64,000 nt of DNA from a bacterium. Lineage in GTDB: Bacteria > Armatimonadota > Fimbriimonadia > Fimbriimonadales > Fimbriimonadaceae. The first letter of the stretch is position 1; every line of letters begins with the position of its first letter. This document shows, one piece after another, positions 14,509-22,081 of this stretch. The translations under genes and the position numbers were made by a program. Below the pieces are notes generated by a model. That model had not been told where the DNA came from, did no database searches, and was given only the letters and a program-made list of their open reading frames with translations. The stretch spans positions 744,001 through 808,000 of the forward strand of contig JAIXUN010000002.1 in NCBI GenBank assembly GCA_027483535.1, written 5' to 3'.

Positions 14509-14545
14509 AGTGATTAGCAGATGTATTTCTGCTAATCACTTTTTT
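14509..14545 (+). terminator. Intrinsic terminator of the GH9 gene
   Basis: 13-bp perfect stem (14509-14521 with 14528-14540), loop tgtatt, followed by TTTTT. A textbook rightward terminator separating the GH9 gene from the PYP operon. Confidence 0.92.
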
Positions 14546-14906: not shown

Positions 14907-15341
14907 ATGGAAACCATCATCAGCATGGAAGAGCAACTTGCGGAGCTCTACCGTGAGAAAGAGCATCTTTCTGTGGCATTTCCTGGTCTAGATGTGAAGG
15001 GATTTATCGACTTGACCCGCAGTGTGCAGGGACAACTCGATGATCTCATCTCCGAGCAAGTAGATCAGCTACTTGAGGAGAAGTCCAAAATGGAGGCCGC
15101 CCTCCCCGGACTCACCACAGACCAGATAATCGAACTGGCCCAGGCAGAACTCTATCGACGAACCGGCGCCACCGCAGACGCCGACCCCGTGACAACGTCG
15201 TTCTCCCAGCAGTTGGCATCGCTCTATTCCGAGCGAGAAGAGCTGGAATCGGCATTCCCGGGCCGATCGGTACCCGAGATCGTTGGAGAAATCCAAGAAA
15301 AGATTCGACTTCTCGAGCAGCTTTATGCGCGGAAGAACTAG
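14907..15341 (+). CDS. Triple-repeat helical protein, first gene of PYP operon
   Basis: 144 residues, soluble, highly charged and probably helical. Three copies of one unit are visible at about 11-36, 55-77 and 103-129, with consensus LxxLYxExExLxxAFPGxxxxEIxxL. Each copy has the core FPG or LPG followed by an amphipathic stretch. Family not recognised. The ATG follows GAGGAACCGT, a fair Shine-Dalgarno. The PYP gene starts 27 bases after its stop. By position it is likely a partner or scaffold of the light-sensing system, but nothing in the sequence gives a biochemical role. Confidence 0.75.
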   Translation: METIISMEEQLAELYREKEHLSVAFPGLDVKGFIDLTRSVQGQLDDLISEQVDQLLEEKSKMEAALPGLTTDQIIELAQAELYRRTGATADADPVTTSFSQQLASLYSEREELESAFPGRSVPEIVGEIQEKIRLLEQLYARKN

Positions 15342-15368
15342 ACCCAAAAGCAGGAAACAAGAGAACCA

Positions 15369-15740
15369 ATGAGCTTTGTAGACACTTCAATCATCAACCG
15401 ACCGGGCAACGTGACCCGGGAAATGGCCGATTCGCAAGATTACGGCATCGTCAAAGTAGACGACAACGGCAACATCCTCCTCTACAACCGGTATGAGGCA
15501 GACATGGCCGGCGTGGAGCCCTCTCATGCAGAAGGACGATCGTTCTTTACGCAGGTTGCCCCTTGCACCAACAACCGCCTCTTCTTTGGCAAGTTCAAAG
15601 AGGGCGTCTCCAATGGGAACCTGAACGAGCAGTTCAAGTACACGTTCACGTACAAGATGAAGCCGACCCCGGTCGAGATTCACCTGTACCGAGATCAGGA
15701 GACCAAAACAAACTGGGTCTTCGTTAAGAAGGCAGCTTAA
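15369..15740 (+). CDS. pyp: Photoactive yellow protein (PYP), blue-light receptor
   Basis: 123 residues, close to the 125 of Halorhodospira halophila PYP. It is a single PAS domain that binds p-coumaric acid as a thioester. Strings shared with classical PYP include VAPCT, GKFKEGV, GNLN, YTF and WVFVK. The chromophore cysteine is Cys66 (equivalent to Cys69). Tyr39 and Glu43 match the chromophore-binding Tyr42 and Glu46. Two pocket residues differ: Thr50 is Ala47 and Arg52 is Val49. Numbering is offset by 3 with no gaps across this region. The gene is in the same operon as the chromophore enzyme (17869-20781). The next gene starts 2 bases after its stop. Confidence 0.95.
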   Translation: MSFVDTSIINRPGNVTREMADSQDYGIVKVDDNGNILLYNRYEADMAGVEPSHAEGRSFFTQVAPCTNNRLFFGKFKEGVSNGNLNEQFKYTFTYKMKPTPVEIHLYRDQETKTNWVFVKKAA

Positions 15741-15742
15741 AC

Positions 15743-16357
15743 ATGGAGGCGGTCGGTTCCATCCAACACCTTCGACGCATCTTGATCGAGATCGAAGGGC
15801 TCGTGAGTTCTTACTCTCTGGAGGAAAGAACAAGTGTATGTCAGTTACTTGAAGAGTGCGTTCGAAAGGTTCAAGGGATCGGAACCGACTCGCCCATCCC
15901 AAAGACGCTTTCGGAAGCGGTCTTAGATCGCTTCTCGTTTGATCGCTGGCGCATCTTTACCGAGAGCCTGATCGGACATATGGAGATTCAAGAACTCTCC
16001 GTTCAAAGCCTCATTTGGTCTTATCTGCAGTCGCGTCTACAGAAGATTCAGGCACTCGCCTTTCTTCTTGCCGACCCAGAAGACGAGGCGGAACTCCGAG
16101 ATCATCTCCTGTACTGGTATGTCGAATCGAAAGCGGAGTGGTTTCAATTCAACTGTCGTGTGAACTACACCACGGTTCGAGGCGAGAACCCGGATCCCGT
16201 GCTCGTAGTCCAGGCCTCCCTGAGTAGCCACACGCTTCAGGTTCTGGAAGCGCTGTTCGACGAGCAAGAAATCACTTTGCTCACCGACTTTATCTCTGCT
16301 CCCCTCCCCAATGCGCTGTTGCTGGACTCGTATCGACAAAGCAACAGTCGCGCCTGA
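15743..16357 (+). CDS. PYP-operon protein sharing a module with the CheA-like partner
   Basis: 204 residues, soluble, mostly helical. Family not recognised. Residues about 95-197 align by eye with residues about 48-147 of the next protein: LLYWYVESKAEWFQFN versus VVYWYIEAKAQWCQFN, then VNY versus LNY, LEALF versus IESLF, and LLTDFISAP versus ALTDILAAP. This indicates duplication of a common module. The N-terminal 90 residues are different. The start lies 2 bases after the PYP stop with AAGG inside the end of pyp, so the two are translationally close. A signalling or scaffold role beside PYP is inferred from context only. Confidence 0.8.
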   Translation: MEAVGSIQHLRRILIEIEGLVSSYSLEERTSVCQLLEECVRKVQGIGTDSPIPKTLSEAVLDRFSFDRWRIFTESLIGHMEIQELSVQSLIWSYLQSRLQKIQALAFLLADPEDEAELRDHLLYWYVESKAEWFQFNCRVNYTTVRGENPDPVLVVQASLSSHTLQVLEALFDEQEITLLTDFISAPLPNALLLDSYRQSNSRA

Positions 16358-16376
16358 AGACACACGTTCTTTAGCC

Positions 16377-17891
16377 ATGGAAGCCCCCACCTTGTTTGTA
16401 GAAGTCAAAGCGGTCATCGAAGGTAAGGATTGGACCCGGCACGCAGCCGCGTTGGCGGGTGAATCCGGGGTGGAGGCTTCCGAGGATGTCCAGCGCATCG
16501 TGGCGTTCACCGAAACCCGATTGGGTCAGCTCCAAGGATTGCTCGATGACGTCGGAGACGATCCTGAATCAGAACCAGACTTGCGCGCCGCGGTGGTGTA
16601 TTGGTACATCGAGGCAAAAGCCCAGTGGTGCCAATTCAACCAACGACTCAACTACCAAATGATGCTGACGGGCATGCCCGATATGGCCCTTATGGTGATT
16701 GGGGCTATTGGAACCGCCATTCTTCAAGACATCGAATCGCTCTTCCAACCCAGCGAAATCGAAGCCCTTACCGACATCTTGGCGGCCCCAATTGAAACGG
16801 CCACTGATTACAACAAGCTCAAGACTTTACAGATAAGCGATGGTCATTGCGAGATTCCGATTGCTTTGGCGGAAGGGATTCAGCAAACGCTCCTGGAAGT
16901 CCAGCAATTCCAATTTAAGCTCGACGCCGATCAGGGTCTTGGTGGCTCGCAAACCGTTTTAACCGAGTACGGCCCCCTTGTGAAAGCGGCTCAATCCCAG
17001 CTTGCGCAACTGAACGATTTCAACAAGTACGAGAAGCTCTTCCGCAGGTTCGTTCAACAGATCTCCGAGACCGTCGGGGTGCGAATCATGCCCTGCTTCG
17101 ACCTTGCCCAAGACGCAAAACTCGATCTCCCCACCCAAAAGGCGATGATCGATCTTTGCTATCGATACCTGGGCGTTTTGGCAGAGCGTGGGCTAGAGAA
17201 ATCAGCCGAAGAGCGCATTGCCAAAGGGAAGCCAGGCTACGTCGACGTCAAATTCCGGGTCTACACAGACGGGAGAAGAATCACTCTCGAGCTCAAGGAC
17301 AACGGCGTTCCCTTAGCGGACCAGGATGTTGTCACCGAACAAATGAAGGATGCGGAGACGCTACGAGCCGTCCCCGGTGCCACTCTTGAAATGGACTCGA
17401 CGGAGGAAGGCAACTGCATACGAGCCACTTTTCCCGTTCCCAAAGACCTCTCCGCAAAGGACTACTTGGAAGTCGCTGTCGGCGAGAACATCTATGCAGT
17501 TGAGTCCTCTATCGTCGATGCCGTAGTCAACTTCGACTCCGCCTGCGTGCAAGCTTCTCATACCACCCCTTCGCTGGTCGTCCACGGCGTGCGCCACGAC
17601 GTGTTCGGGCTAGTCGAACTCATCGGAGAGCAGTCCGAGCTACCCGTTCGTGGTGTAGGACTCACTCTCAAACGCAACGATCTACCCACGGTTGTTGTGG
17701 TGGACGCCGTTGTCAACCGCAGGAACGGTGTGGCAAGGCCGCTCGGGAAAATGCCTTTCGAAACGGCAAGCTACATCACCGGTTACCTTCCCAACGAGAA
17801 AGCCTGCTCTCTCGTCGTCGATCTCAAACAGCTTCTTCAACCAGAAACAAGCGACCAGGACGCTTTGGATGAATACAATCATGCCTCTTAA
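16377..17891 (+). CDS. CheA-derived pseudokinase with CheW-like C-terminus
   Basis: 504 residues from the ATG at 16377. Residues 48-147 are the module shared with the preceding protein. About 215-355 match the CheA ATPase region: RGLEKSAEERIAKGKP (271-286) is the CheA N-box tail, and LKDNGVPL (306-313) stands at the G1 box. However, the ATP-binding Asn and His of the N box are replaced (Val and Arg in my alignment), the G1 box ends in Pro, and the G2/ATP-lid segment is missing between 320 and 333. PGATLEMDSTEEGNCIRATF resumes the CheA fold. About 360-490 is a CheW-like regulatory domain (DYLEVAVGENIYAVE). No Hpt histidine domain is seen. It probably binds chemotaxis-type partners without phosphorylating them. 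Confidence 0.8.
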   Translation: MEAPTLFVEVKAVIEGKDWTRHAAALAGESGVEASEDVQRIVAFTETRLGQLQGLLDDVGDDPESEPDLRAAVVYWYIEAKAQWCQFNQRLNYQMMLTGMPDMALMVIGAIGTAILQDIESLFQPSEIEALTDILAAPIETATDYNKLKTLQISDGHCEIPIALAEGIQQTLLEVQQFQFKLDADQGLGGSQTVLTEYGPLVKAAQSQLAQLNDFNKYEKLFRRFVQQISETVGVRIMPCFDLAQDAKLDLPTQKAMIDLCYRYLGVLAERGLEKSAEERIAKGKPGYVDVKFRVYTDGRRITLELKDNGVPLADQDVVTEQMKDAETLRAVPGATLEMDSTEEGNCIRATFPVPKDLSAKDYLEVAVGENIYAVESSIVDAVVNFDSACVQASHTTPSLVVHGVRHDVFGLVELIGEQSELPVRGVGLTLKRNDLPTVVVVDAVVNRRNGVARPLGKMPFETASYITGYLPNEKACSLVVDLKQLLQPETSDQDALDEYNHAS

Positions 17892-20781
17892 GCCCTTAAC
17901 TCCATCCCTCAATAACGGCATCTACCGCTCGTTAGAGAGTGTTCTTCTCCGGCAGCCAGAGCCTCTTATCATTGCCAACCGATCCTGTCCGGCCGCCTCC
18001 CTGTGGACAGGAGGGCTAGCGGTCACCAAGGCGCTTCAGGAGGCCGGGCTTCAACCCGGACAGCGCGTTGCCGCTCGGATTCCAAATGGAGTCGCTTACG
18101 TTCAGGCGATGCTTGGGGTCTGGGGAGCTGGGGGTGTTTTCTGCCCGCTCCCGGCTGGGCTCGAAGATGAAGAGGTCGAGCAGCGACTAGACGTCATGGA
18201 CGCGGCCGCCTTCATCGACGGCGAGATCACGGTCGAGGCGATTGTGCAGGGGCTCAAGATTCCTGTTGAGCAGGGGACCACGGTTTCGGCTGCCGATGTG
18301 CGGCTGATGCTCTGGACTTCGGGCTCTCAGGGCCTGGCTAAAGTGATTGCCGTTCGCGACGTCAACCTCGTGCACCAAGTAGACACTCACCTCAACGTCC
18401 TAAACATCGGCAAGCACTCTACGGTGATCAGCTACCTCTCTTGGGCGCACTGCTTCGGGGGAATTCTCGAGCTGCTCTGCTCTTTGTTCGCAGGGGCGGT
18501 TATCGAAATCCCCTCTCCTGAGCATTTCCATCTGGAGAGCATTGCCAAAGCGATCGAGCGGGTCGAACACCCTGTTTTGTTCAGCGTTCCGAAGGTGATC
18601 GAACAGCTCGCCGAGCGTTCCAACGGTCGACTCCTTCTGGCAAAAATTGAGGAAGGAATCATTGGTGGAGCCCCAATGAACGGCGAACTCGCCGGGATCC
18701 TTACCCGCGCCGGATGCCGAATGAGAATCGGTTACGGACAAACCGAATGCACGCCCGGGATCATGCTCGGTCAGCCTGGATTCTTCGCCGCAAACTATCT
18801 CGGATTCCCGATCGGCTGCGAGGTGCGGCAAGACGCAAATGACGTCTTGGAAGTGAAGGGCAGTAATGTCAGCGATCCCGATATCGAGTGGTGGAACACG
18901 GGCGATGTGGTGATTCGACACGAAGACGGCAGCTACTCCCTGAAGGGTCGAGTCGGTCGGTCATGGAAGTGGTCGAACGGTCGGATGTTCCATCCCGAGC
19001 CCGAAGAGCAACTGCTTTCCGAACGCCTCCAAACCGAGGTCGTTGTCGCCAAGAAGAATGGCGATGCCGCTTTCGGAATCGCGCGTGGGGAAGGGGTTTG
19101 GCCCAGTCGTGACCTGGGAGCGTCTCCTTACATCTCGGATGGGATCTATCTTGCCGACGAGATTTGGGAAATGGCGGCGACGCCATCTGGAAAGATCGAC
19201 TACTCGCTCCTGGCATTCTTGGGCGAAAAAGCGATGAGTGCCAAGGTAGAAGACGTGGTCGAGGTTGGTGCAGGAATACGGCTGGAACCTGTACATATCG
19301 CAAGTCGAACCGCGCTTGTGGTGAACGAAAATGCCCGAGCGGCGGTGGAGCGAAGCCACCGCTTTGCGCTGGAGAAGGCGGCTTCCAACACCCCCATCTA
19401 CGGCTGGAAAACGGGCTTTGGACCGCTGGTGAAGTACGCCGCCGACGAGGACCCGAGAAAGCAAGGATTCGGCCTCCTCTGCCACCTGCAAGCAGGCCAA
19501 GGCGATCCCCTGGAACCCGACGTGGTGCGATCCATGATCCGGCTTCGACTCCATACCGCTTCGCAGGGTCTCAGTGGAATCTCGCCGAAGACGGTTGATT
19601 GGATCGAAAAAGCGGTGGAGCAAGACCTAGTCCCGGTGGTACCAAGCATGGGTTCGGTTGGGGCGAGCGGAGACCTGATCCCAATGGCGCATGCGGTCGC
19701 CGCGTTTTGTGGGGAGGGCGAGGTCTGGCTTAAAGGCGAGAGAATGTCGGCCTCTGAGGCTCTGAACCGACTTGGGTGGGAACCGATCCCGCTTGAAGGG
19801 CGAGACTCTTTGGCCCTTGTGAACGGCACTCCGCTGATGAGTGCGGCGGGCTGTGTCGCCCTAGAGCGGGCTCGAATTCGGCTTTCCGCCGCCTCTGCCT
19901 TGACGGCTCTCCTATACGACCTTCTGGGTTGCCACGACCAGCCGATCCGCACAAAACTACACGAGGCGTCGGGTCATTCAACCCACGTTCGCATCGCCGA
20001 AACCATCCACCATCTTGCCAACGGGATCAACAAAGATGGTCGAGATCGGCCGTTGCAAGAATCCTATTCTCTCCGGTGTGCGCCCCAAGTATTGGGTGCC
20101 GCGCTAACCGTTTGGGAGCAAGCCAACGAGGTGGTGACCCGCGAGATCAACGGTGTCACCGATAACCCAATCTTTGATGCCGACGGCGATCAAGTCATCC
20201 ACGGGGGAAACTTCTTTGGTCAAGAAGTGGCGTTCGCAATGGACCATTTGTCGAACGCGATGATTCAGGTCGCAAATCTTGTCGAGCGTCAACTGGCTCT
20301 CTTAATGGAGCCCGCGCAAACCGATGGTCTGAATCTGATGCTGAGCCCTCGTCCGGGAGCGGCAAGTGGATTCGCGGGTGTTCAGCTTTGTGCGACGGCG
20401 ATCGTTGCCGAGATGCGACGAACCGCGATGCCCGCCTCTATCCAGACCTTGCCGACCAACGGCATGAACCAAGACATCGTTCCGCTAGGCACCCATGCGG
20501 CACTCAACACTTTGGCAATGATCGAGAAATTGGACATTTTGATCGGCGCCTTGGGACTGGCAATCCGACAAGCCTTCCATCTTGCTCAGCGAGAACCTGC
20601 CAGTGCGATTGGAAAGTCGATTCCCGCGCTCTTCGCGATCGAACCGCTCCTTGAGGATCGCCCCCTCGCCGCCGATGTTCGAAAGGCGTCGGAGATCATC
20701 CTCACCAATCCGTGTGTTCATCAGGCGTGCGAATATCTGCAGCCAAAGACTCTTCACGACTCGAATCTTCTAGCCGCCTAA
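17869..20781 (+). CDS. Fused p-coumarate:CoA ligase and tyrosine ammonia-lyase
   Basis: 970 residues. Residues about 1-450 form an ANL adenylating enzyme: P-loop LWTSGSQGLAKV (149-159, unusual for the SSGTTGxPKG consensus), GYGQTECTPG, NTGDV, and the A10 lysine Lys442 in TPSGK. Residues about 465-970 form an aromatic ammonia-lyase: catalytic Tyr511 in IYGWKTGFGPL, MIO-forming Ala599-Ser600-Gly601 in GSVGASGDLIPMAH, and His539-Leu540 at the selectivity position where tyrosine lyases carry His-Leu. Together it should convert tyrosine to p-coumarate and then p-coumaroyl-CoA, the PYP chromophore donor. The ATG at 17869 has AGGA 8 bases upstream and overlaps the CheA-like gene by 23 bases; 17881 is the alternative start. 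Confidence 0.92.
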   Translation: MNTIMPLKPLTPSLNNGIYRSLESVLLRQPEPLIIANRSCPAASLWTGGLAVTKALQEAGLQPGQRVAARIPNGVAYVQAMLGVWGAGGVFCPLPAGLEDEEVEQRLDVMDAAAFIDGEITVEAIVQGLKIPVEQGTTVSAADVRLMLWTSGSQGLAKVIAVRDVNLVHQVDTHLNVLNIGKHSTVISYLSWAHCFGGILELLCSLFAGAVIEIPSPEHFHLESIAKAIERVEHPVLFSVPKVIEQLAERSNGRLLLAKIEEGIIGGAPMNGELAGILTRAGCRMRIGYGQTECTPGIMLGQPGFFAANYLGFPIGCEVRQDANDVLEVKGSNVSDPDIEWWNTGDVVIRHEDGSYSLKGRVGRSWKWSNGRMFHPEPEEQLLSERLQTEVVVAKKNGDAAFGIARGEGVWPSRDLGASPYISDGIYLADEIWEMAATPSGKIDYSLLAFLGEKAMSAKVEDVVEVGAGIRLEPVHIASRTALVVNENARAAVERSHRFALEKAASNTPIYGWKTGFGPLVKYAADEDPRKQGFGLLCHLQAGQGDPLEPDVVRSMIRLRLHTASQGLSGISPKTVDWIEKAVEQDLVPVVPSMGSVGASGDLIPMAHAVAAFCGEGEVWLKGERMSASEALNRLGWEPIPLEGRDSLALVNGTPLMSAAGCVALERARIRLSAASALTALLYDLLGCHDQPIRTKLHEASGHSTHVRIAETIHHLANGINKDGRDRPLQESYSLRCAPQVLGAALTVWEQANEVVTREINGVTDNPIFDADGDQVIHGGNFFGQEVAFAMDHLSNAMIQVANLVERQLALLMEPAQTDGLNLMLSPRPGAASGFAGVQLCATAIVAEMRRTAMPASIQTLPTNGMNQDIVPLGTHAALNTLAMIEKLDILIGALGLAIRQAFHLAQREPASAIGKSIPALFAIEPLLEDRPLAADVRKASEIILTNPCVHQACEYLQPKTLHDSNLLAA

Positions 20782-20793
20782 TGCGCAAAAAGT

Positions 20794-20829
20794 AGCACCT
20801 CGGAGGTCGTAACCTGAGGTGCTTTTTTT
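20794..20829 (+). terminator. Intrinsic terminator of the PYP operon
   Basis: Outer stem AGCACCTC/GAGGTGCT (20794-20801 with 20816-20823), inner stem AGGT/ACCT with loop cgta, followed by TTTTTT. Strong rightward terminator directly after the ligase-lyase gene. Confidence 0.9.
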
Positions 20830-20863
20830 GTTTCCGACTCGTTCGCCTGGAACCACTGAGTCG

Positions 20864-20887
20864 GATAGGGACCCGTAGGTCCCTATC
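20864..20887. terminator. Hairpin at the end of the FlhG-like gene
   Basis: 10-bp perfect stem GATAGGGACC/GGTCCCTATC with loop cgta, overlapping the stop codon of the leftward gene. No T run follows on either strand, so termination is uncertain; it may stabilise the transcript end. Confidence 0.45.
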
Positions 20888-21731
20888 GAGATGAGCGCGC
20901 GAGAAGATCGTCGATTCGACTGAGACCCGCCATCAGTCGAGACATGAACGATCCGCGTTCTTCAGTTTCTGCCTGTACGGTTGAGATTCGACTTCGAAGT
21001 TGGGACGCATGCCACTTAGAAGCGACCTGCTTCACCTCTCTCGCTGCCGAGGATTTAGGGTTGCTAACCATCAGCGGAGATCGCGAACAAAGGGCATTCC
21101 GGAACGAGAGGTCGCGATGGATGGCGCCCAGAAACTCAACGTTCACGTTGAGGGATTCCCTCGCTACGGAGTGGATGCGATAAAAGAACGACTTTCCTTG
21201 CTCGGAACTGTCGGCCATGTTCATCACCACCTTCACTCTAATGTTGGGTCGGCGCCGAGCAAGGACTTTCAGAGTTGCGAAAGAGTCCAGAACACTGAGT
21301 GGATCTGGAGTCACCACTAACACGATCTCATCGGAAGCCGCGAGCAATGCCAAGTTTGCGCTCGAGATTCCCGCCGCCGTATCCACGACCATCACGTCGA
21401 ACGAAGATTCCAGTTTTCCGAACTGCTGAATCAGACGGGAGGTGGACACCATGTCGAGATCGGCCAGTTCGGTCACTCCGCTCGATCCTGCCAGGATACT
21501 AATGCCGTACGAGGTATTCATGACGACATCCTCTATTCGCGCCCCGTTCAGAAGGTCGACTAATGTCATTACAGGTCGAATCCCCAGAACCGTGTCTACA
21601 TTAGCAAGTCCAAAATCGGCATCCAGCAAAATTGTTCGATATCCGATTTCCGAAAGAGCGATGGAAAAGTTGCAGGAAAGGGAAGTTTTTCCTACGCCAC
21701 CTTTCCCTCCGGTAAATGCAATGGTCTTCAT
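20883..21731 (-). CDS. FlhG/MinD-like P-loop ATPase
   Basis: 282 residues. Deviant Walker A GGKGGVGKTSLSCN at residues 8-21 with the signature lysine, ILLDADFGLANVD (switch region with the FlhG-typical GLANVD), and VMVVDTAAGIS as Walker B. FlhG/YlxH proteins regulate the number and site of flagella together with the SRP-like GTPase FlhF; others in the family place other polar structures. No flagellar genes lie in the window. The start is the ATG at 21731, which overlaps the stop of the upstream gene (TGATG), indicating translational coupling. C-terminal residues 230-282 are basic and helical. Confidence 0.85.
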   Translation of the reverse strand: MKTIAFTGGKGGVGKTSLSCNFSIALSEIGYRTILLDADFGLANVDTVLGIRPVMTLVDLLNGARIEDVVMNTSYGISILAGSSGVTELADLDMVSTSRLIQQFGKLESSFDVMVVDTAAGISSANLALLAASDEIVLVVTPDPLSVLDSFATLKVLARRRPNIRVKVVMNMADSSEQGKSFFYRIHSVARESLNVNVEFLGAIHRDLSFRNALCSRSPLMVSNPKSSAAREVKQVASKWHASQLRSRISTVQAETEERGSFMSRLMAGLSRIDDLLARSSR

Positions 21732-22081
21732 CAAGCTGCCCGTGTGAAGTAAGACCGAATCCGGTCGACCATGGAAACCGTTTTGGTTTCGATAAAGACG
21801 GCTTCCATCGCCTCGCGTGGATCTGCCGCCCCGTCCTCAATCGGAATTTTTGCCGATTGTTGAATCTCTAGATTAGGTTTGATCTGCTCGTCGACAATCT
21901 TTGCCGCCACTTGAGACGGGATCTGCGACCTTCGAAGAATCGTCCGGATGAGCTCTGATCCCGACCCTCGAAATGAGGATTCCGTCGTCTCTGATTCGCC
22001 CTGGTCTGAAGGGTCTATTTTTGGGGAGGTTTTGATCGATTCGATGAGATGACGAATCGTCTTTGTGTCCAGGCTTGGCAT
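21731..22081 (-). CDS. Small protein coupled to the FlhG-like ATPase
   Basis: 116 residues, soluble, with low-complexity acidic and serine-rich residues 20-40. The segment ELIRTILRRSQIPSQVAAKIVDEQ (residues about 43-66) resembles the N domain of SRP-type GTPases such as FlhF, but no GTPase domain follows. The C-terminus SMVDRIRSYFTRAA is basic and amphipathic. Its stop overlaps the ATG of the ATPase gene, so the two are made together. It may be a shortened FlhF-like activator of the ATPase; this is inference, and the family is not securely recognised. Confidence 0.6.
   Translation of the reverse strand: MPSLDTKTIRHLIESIKTSPKIDPSDQGESETTESSFRGSGSELIRTILRRSQIPSQVAAKIVDEQIKPNLEIQQSAKIPIEDGAADPREAMEAVFIETKTVSMVDRIRSYFTRAA

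Follow-up and report, generated by a model that had tools for sequence, protein, structure and literature searches.

A photoactive yellow protein operon of a Fimbriimonadaceae bacterium with candidate signalling partners that recur beside pyp in other phyla

Photoactive yellow protein (PYP) is a blue-light receptor, the p-coumaroyl chromophore of which is made by tyrosine ammonia-lyase (TAL) and p-coumaroyl-CoA ligase (pCL). In Halorhodospira halophila the genes form one operon (pyp-pCL-TAL; PMC12826048). An input of PYP to the chemotaxis machinery has been suggested from fusions with methyl-accepting chemotaxis proteins (MCPs) and from chemoreceptors encoded next to PYP (PMC12826048, PMC9664959), and the PYP-phytochrome-kinase Ppr of Rhodocista centenaria is tied to CheW and CheA (PMC2993699). 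Surveys name kinases, GGDEF/EAL, MCP, V4R, BLUF, pCL and TAL among the proteins associated with PYP (PMC9664959, PMC12826048), and papers of 2022-2026 still call its signal output unknown (PMC9664959, PMC12826048, PMC13250908). Here we analyse a pyp operon at positions 14907-20781 of a 64,000-nucleotide stretch of DNA (hereafter the window) from a Fimbriimonadaceae bacterium of the phylum Armatimonadota (assembly GCA_027483535.1, contig JAIXUN010000002.1, positions 744,001 to 808,000). Its gene content suggests that an established photoreceptor is joined here to a relay of a new sort. We consider it likely that the operon is a self-contained blue-light cassette, in which PYP and a coiled-coil repeat protein (CC) would form the sensor, a module shared by two proteins (MOD) would relay the signal to varied outputs, and a CheA-derived protein (MOD-pseudoCheA) would serve as adaptor or competitor. 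An earlier note, made from the sequence alone, knew of no account of PYP in this lineage or with such partners. PYP had already been reported in Armatimonadota (PMC9664959, PMC12826048), so that this part of the claim falls; the partners are undescribed as far as we found. In the literature we found no account of MOD or CC, nor of pCL and TAL naturally fused, subscription papers and supplements lying outside the search, and the words "coiled" and "CheW" are absent from the main texts of PMC9664959 and PMC12826048.

The five genes lie on the + strand with gaps of 27, 2 and 19 bases, followed by an 11-base overlap, and are flanked by intrinsic terminators. Alternative in-frame ATG starts are present at 16311 for the open reading frame (ORF) at 16377-17891 and at 17869 for that at 17881-20781. 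The features are:

14509..14540, + strand: upstream intrinsic terminator (13-bp stem, loop of 6, T run)
14907..15341, + strand: CC, coiled-coil repeat protein of 144 amino acids, its repeats spanning residues 7-38 and 100-130 (homologue in genome G126; CC profile)
15369..15740, + strand: photoactive yellow protein, 123 amino acids (phmmer 1.9e-30 to a solved Halorhodospira PYP; TIGR02373 4e-34)
15564..15566, + strand: codon of Cys66, predicted chromophore attachment residue, equivalent to Cys69 of H. halophila (alignment, sequence)
15743..16357, + strand: MOD protein, 204 amino acids (unmatched in Pfam, NCBIfam and PDB; AlphaFold2 model)
15920..16312, + strand: first copy of the MOD module (W and N invariant across 44 aligned modules)
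16377..17891, + strand: MOD-pseudoCheA, 504 amino acids, MOD followed by degenerate CheA P4 and CheW-like P5 (phmmer, profile, fold)
16404..16799, + strand: second copy of the MOD module (same alignment of 44 modules; 34% identical to the first copy)
17022..17441, + strand: P4 (ATPase) domain of CheA type, degenerate (aligned by profile with CheA from locus L034)
17457..17837, + strand: CheW-like (P5) domain (Foldseek to the CheA P4-P5/CheW complexes 2ch4 and 3ur1; phmmer against PDB, stretch 340-483)
17881..20781, + strand: pCL-TAL fusion enzyme, 966 amino acids (Pfam halves; same fusion in G126, locus L008, and G008, locus L011)
17881..19245, + strand: AMP-binding CoA-ligase half, pCL-like (PF00501, 2e-35)
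19267..20778, + strand: aromatic ammonia-lyase half, TAL-like (PF00221, 8e-133)
19663..19671, + strand: Ala-Ser-Gly triad forming the MIO (4-methylideneimidazole-5-one) cofactor (sequence, alignment)
20786..20832, + strand: downstream intrinsic terminator (folding -21.5 kcal/mol, z -4.5 against shuffles)

The earlier note had described a complete PYP operon of five co-directional genes between terminators, comprising a PYP with Cys66, Glu43 and Tyr39 intact, a TAL-like/pCL-like enzyme, and two proteins with a common unrecognised module, one of which continues into a CheA/CheW-like pseudokinase body. All of this is borne out by the ORF coordinates, the terminator structures and the analyses below.

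The case for a relay begins with the recurrence of MOD and CC beside pyp. We read the surroundings of the Armatimonadota PYP genes together with 80 named PYP loci of GTDB genomes, including two that are Armatimonadota loci again, using MOD and CC profiles derived from the proteins of the window and the relatives found first. The MOD profile matched 44 ORFs in 39 loci, and units of the CC profile occurred in 44 ORFs in 40 loci, adjoining or fused to PYP. Nearly every copy of either lies no more than 2-3 kb from pyp, and the phyla concerned number at least eight: Armatimonadota, Bdellovibrionota, Myxococcota, Planctomycetota, Gemmatimonadota, Spirochaetota, Bacteroidota/Rhodothermota and Pseudomonadota (Sphaerotilus). 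Conservation of the neighbours in other genomes, which the earlier note had put forward as a check, was thus found mostly through other phyla. CC is fused to PYP in Rhodothermota-type genomes, in one planctomycete and, as N-terminal extensions of PYP recognised mostly by eye, several times in Bdellovibrionota; MOD is fused to CC in other Armatimonadota, and CheA carries a C-terminal MOD in seven Bdellovibrionota loci. These fusions tie PYP, CC, MOD and CheA together; a natural PYP-MOD fusion was looked for and none was found. The Bdellovibrionota CheA-MOD proteins fit sequence patterns of a CheA, that for the Hpt (histidine phosphotransfer) domain in six of seven, that for the N box in five of seven (KNSIDHG in L050) and those for the G1 and G2 boxes in all seven. 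Three of their operons were read further. One (L138:1215-5447) is chemosensory-like without a receptor and encodes CheA-MOD, CC-PYP, an unknown protein of 173 amino acids, CheY and CheX. That of L140 matches it as far as the CheY-like gene, and in L139 TAL and pCL come after the unknown protein.

Whole-genome searches, regardless of neighbourhood, gave the same association. PYP, MOD and both together were found, respectively, in 7, 8 and 7 of 291 Armatimonadota genomes (six PYPs by search, plus that of G018, which is cut off by a contig end), in 11, 10 and 10 of 291 Bdellovibrionota, in 19, 1 and 1 of 179 Myxococcota, and in 4, 4 and 4 of 187 genomes of the Ignavibacteria/Kapabacteria class. 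Among the pooled 948 genomes, 22 have both, one has MOD only, 19 have PYP only and 906 have neither (Fisher 3e-32, a value that overstates independence because of relatedness among the genomes and the choice of PYP-holding groups). MOD is therefore nearly absent where PYP is absent: 22 of the 23 genomes with MOD have PYP, and only 1 of 907 without PYP has MOD. Since eleven genomes that have no MOD at the pyp locus carry it elsewhere, the linkage is not mere co-transfer. On a PYP tree that rests on 125 columns, with many forks unresolved, 54 of the 59 rows in one supported clade come from genomes with MOD, and the classical PYP genomes (Idiomarina, Halomonadaceae, Ectothiorhodospiraceae, Campylobacterota) are without MOD in all 16 tested rows of their clade. 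Position 52 (Halorhodospira numbering) is mostly Val or Ile in PYPs of MOD genomes and mostly Arg in the group without MOD. One clade of PYPs thus probably has MOD and CC as its dedicated relay partners. As a separate observation, six Kapabacteria-type loci (L124, L125, L127-L130) have MOD apart from pyp, in a conserved order upstream of CtpA-type protease-like and RNase-J-like genes.

The photoreceptor is present as a single copy in the window genome. Its closest relatives among solved structures are all PYPs, and Tyr39, Glu43 and Cys66 align with Tyr42, Glu46 and Cys69 of the Halorhodospira protein, while Thr50 and Arg52 of the latter correspond to Ala47 and Val49. The TIGR02373 score (117 bits) lies under the annotation cut-off of 143 of that model, which was built on four seed sequences (PMC9664959). 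The window PYP would carry a p-coumaroyl chromophore on Cys66, and the pCL-TAL fusion enzyme should make it. Adenylation motifs (TSGSQG..K, YGQTE, TGD) and the C-terminal GK can be read in the ligase half, for which the top solved ligase relative is a feruloyl-CoA synthetase, at 55 bits only. The lyase half has the tyrosine-favouring His at the place of His89 (R. sphaeroides numbering) as aligned in 2o6y, a position identified through the variant chain 2o78, which has Phe there. The fusion of the two halves recurs in two further Armatimonadota PYP genomes, G126 and G008.

Several related proteins depart from this arrangement. At the TAL/HAL (histidine ammonia-lyase) selectivity position, the TAL genes of L018, L020, L023 and L126 have Tyr-Leu in place of His-Leu, so that their products may act on another substrate than the window enzyme does. 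The PYP of G021 (L012:9740-10117) has Ser at the chromophore position; its locus retains the MOD and CC genes, but within the 20 kb read neither TAL nor pCL was seen. In Hydrogenedentota and Myxococcota, PYP follows a MerR-type/HTH_17 DNA-binding domain (L065:7803-8351, L078:663-1298, L080:8665-9941; by Pfam for L078, by eye for the others), possibly forming light-controlled transcription factors. Long CC-repeat proteins of Rhodothermota/Bacteroidota genomes (L040:4435-8112, L054:7110-8753, L056:6330-8750, L060, L061, L063, L064) end in a PYP-like domain with Ser or Gly for the chromophore Cys, and an intact PYP is encoded nearby.

MOD itself is a small helical module. The MOD protein and MOD-pseudoCheA match each other with 35% identity over 124 amino acids (E 4e-23). 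In the alignment of 44 modules a Trp and an Asn are invariant and a Glu nearly so, and there is no conserved His. None of the 44 members scanned had a credible match in Pfam, NCBIfam or PDB sequences. The AlphaFold2 model of the 204-residue MOD protein is all helical, with a confidence (pLDDT) of 89.7 overall and 97-98 across the module. Foldseek returned no match at E 0.001, and the best Z of a second-look fold search (VIA), 7.7, is inside the range of unrelated helical proteins; the fold may therefore be new or just a common helical arrangement. There is usually one MOD per genome. The two window copies are at most 26% identical to any other module and thus closest to each other, which suggests a duplication in this lineage. 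CC, the product of the first gene, is a conserved partner too, a point beyond the earlier note: it is 41% identical over 143 amino acids to a protein encoded upstream of pyp in G126. Pfam matches of CC (PhaP and others) were rejected as coil noise, being far under their cut-offs.

The CheA-like body of MOD-pseudoCheA is weakly detected by single-sequence phmmer (3.5e-5). By hhalign it matches the P4-P5 stretch of CheA-MOD proteins from Bdellovibrionota (probability 98%, 1.7e-13), and its model matches CheA 1b3q by Foldseek (8e-20). In its ATP site Val replaces the N-box Asn, DNGVPL stands at the G1 box, and neither lid nor G2 box is present. No Hpt (P1) domain was found by Pfam, and the N-terminal part is MOD without a conserved His. 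The protein is thus CheA-derived but not a CheA, and the loss of phosphotransfer and ATP motifs with retention of the CheW-like domain points to a scaffold or competitor role. The same form occurs in 11 further loci, five of them with PYP, CC, TAL and pCL as in the window. Among the twelve proteins the N-box Asn is kept in two (L018, L023; by eye) and the G2 box in none.

We propose that the fusion enzyme would convert tyrosine into p-coumaric acid and then activate it for attachment to Cys66. Upon illumination, PYP would change how it touches CC, the MOD module or both, and MOD would receive the signal and pass it on, connecting the PYP-CC sensor to a variety of outputs. For Bdellovibrionota the output would be a CheA kinase whose motifs are intact, along with CheY and CheX, in an operon without a receptor. 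In the window it would be the CheA-derived pseudokinase, with phosphotransfer and, by its motifs, ATP binding lost, which is most likely a light-gated adaptor or competitor binding partners of the cell's own CheA/CheW system. The window genome encodes one canonical CheA, two CheW and six MCPs, with a FliD-like gene (identified by reading the sequence) two genes from cheA, which makes coupling to flagellar control plausible there. The earlier note's relay of the light signal to a chemotaxis-type array is thus possible for this genome. It does not hold as a general rule, because G008, G016 and G017 (98%, 85% and 82% complete) have PYP and a MOD-CC protein but neither CheW nor MCP. CheW (PF01584) and MCP (PF00015) were accordingly rejected as general partners. 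The CheA-like form was found in only 1 of 291 Armatimonadota genomes.

A more specific reading is phototaxis through the flagellar array: the CheW-like domain would place pseudoCheA within the lattice of MCP, CheW and CheA, where PYP driven by light would alter the output of the kinase and, with it, swimming. As this reading is one particular form of the cassette, our confidence in the two overlaps, and we put it forward tentatively. The chemotaxis and FliD-like genes of the window genome speak for it, as do the fold match to CheA P4-P5 complexed with CheW, an MCP near pyp in G126, and the precedents of PYP-MCP fusions (PMC12826048) and of the Ppr kinase domain, which binds CheW (PMC2993699). 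The three genomes without CheW and MCP speak against it, and so does G021, which is rich in MCPs but has nothing CheA-like in its cassette. That MOD and CC are instead accessory factors for folding, oligomerisation or chromophore loading of PYP would fit their sharing an operon with pCL and TAL. We regard this as unlikely, given that MOD is fused to CheA with Hpt and ATPase domains and that classical PYPs with TAL lack MOD. The retention of MOD and CC in G021, despite the Cys to Ser replacement and without TAL or pCL in the 20 kb read, likewise argues for a signalling role over chromophore loading. Very improbable, in our estimate, is that the neighbours are mere passengers of a horizontally moved gene block: the patchy distribution of PYP (7 of 291 Armatimonadota and 11 of 291 Bdellovibrionota genomes) would suit this, but not the fusions, the MOD kept in trans in eleven genomes, or its presence in only one PYP-less genome.

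The cassette explanation is preferred, and some points weigh against it. One MOD genome without PYP exists (G122, 72% complete); the MOD profile derives from PYP-linked copies, so that distant MODs without PYP could escape it; and two Leptospiraceae genomes in the MOD-associated PYP clade are without MOD. Single CC matches are weak because the repeats are short and coiled-coil-like, the MOD-pseudoCheA model is of middling confidence (pLDDT 71), and the pseudoCheA form is rare in its own phylum. For the full generalisation we see about even chances: that MOD and CC are relay partners of a whole PYP clade in many phyla, that MOD is a new kind of input module by which a soluble photoreceptor, instead of a chemoreceptor, is coupled directly to CheA-type proteins, and that in Armatimonadota and others CheA has become a light-gated pseudokinase adaptor.

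Two further observations concern the surroundings of pyp. A MinD/FlhG-like (ParA family) ATPase is encoded immediately behind the window operon on the opposite strand (20883-21734, -). At L008:11135-17737 in G126, which belongs to the same family as the window genome, pyp has an MCP gene and genes for two ATPases, PilT-like by eye, a few genes away.

For the signalling partners that have long been missing for this much-studied photoreceptor, MOD and CC are strong candidates. As two small, apparently soluble, sequence-defined partners with clear fusions, and with usually one MOD per genome, they make the question of PYP output testable. A receptor-less CheA driven by a soluble light sensor would, if true, be a compact optogenetic part.

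Compared with the H. halophila operon, the window has the same three chromophore residues and likewise includes pCL and TAL, but the two enzymes are fused, and CC, MOD and pseudoCheA have no counterpart there. On the tree the window PYP groups with relatives of the Salinibacter ruber and Leptospira PYPs (clade B, PMC9664959). Salinibacter relatives share MOD with the window, some with CC-PYP fusions; published accounts of these PYPs name chemoreceptors as neighbours, and we came across no report of a CheA-derived partner, of MOD or of CC. The second half of the ORF at 16377-17891 shares P4-P5 order and fold with Thermotoga maritima CheA (PDB 1b3q, 3ur1) but lacks the Hpt domain, N-box Asn, G2 box and lid, and carries an N-terminal MOD. 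In Ppr the tie to CheW and CheA is a fused histidine kinase, whereas the window has separate CC and MOD proteins. Unlike the MCP-PYP systems, the window operon encodes no MCP, and MOD would join PYP systems directly to CheA-type proteins.

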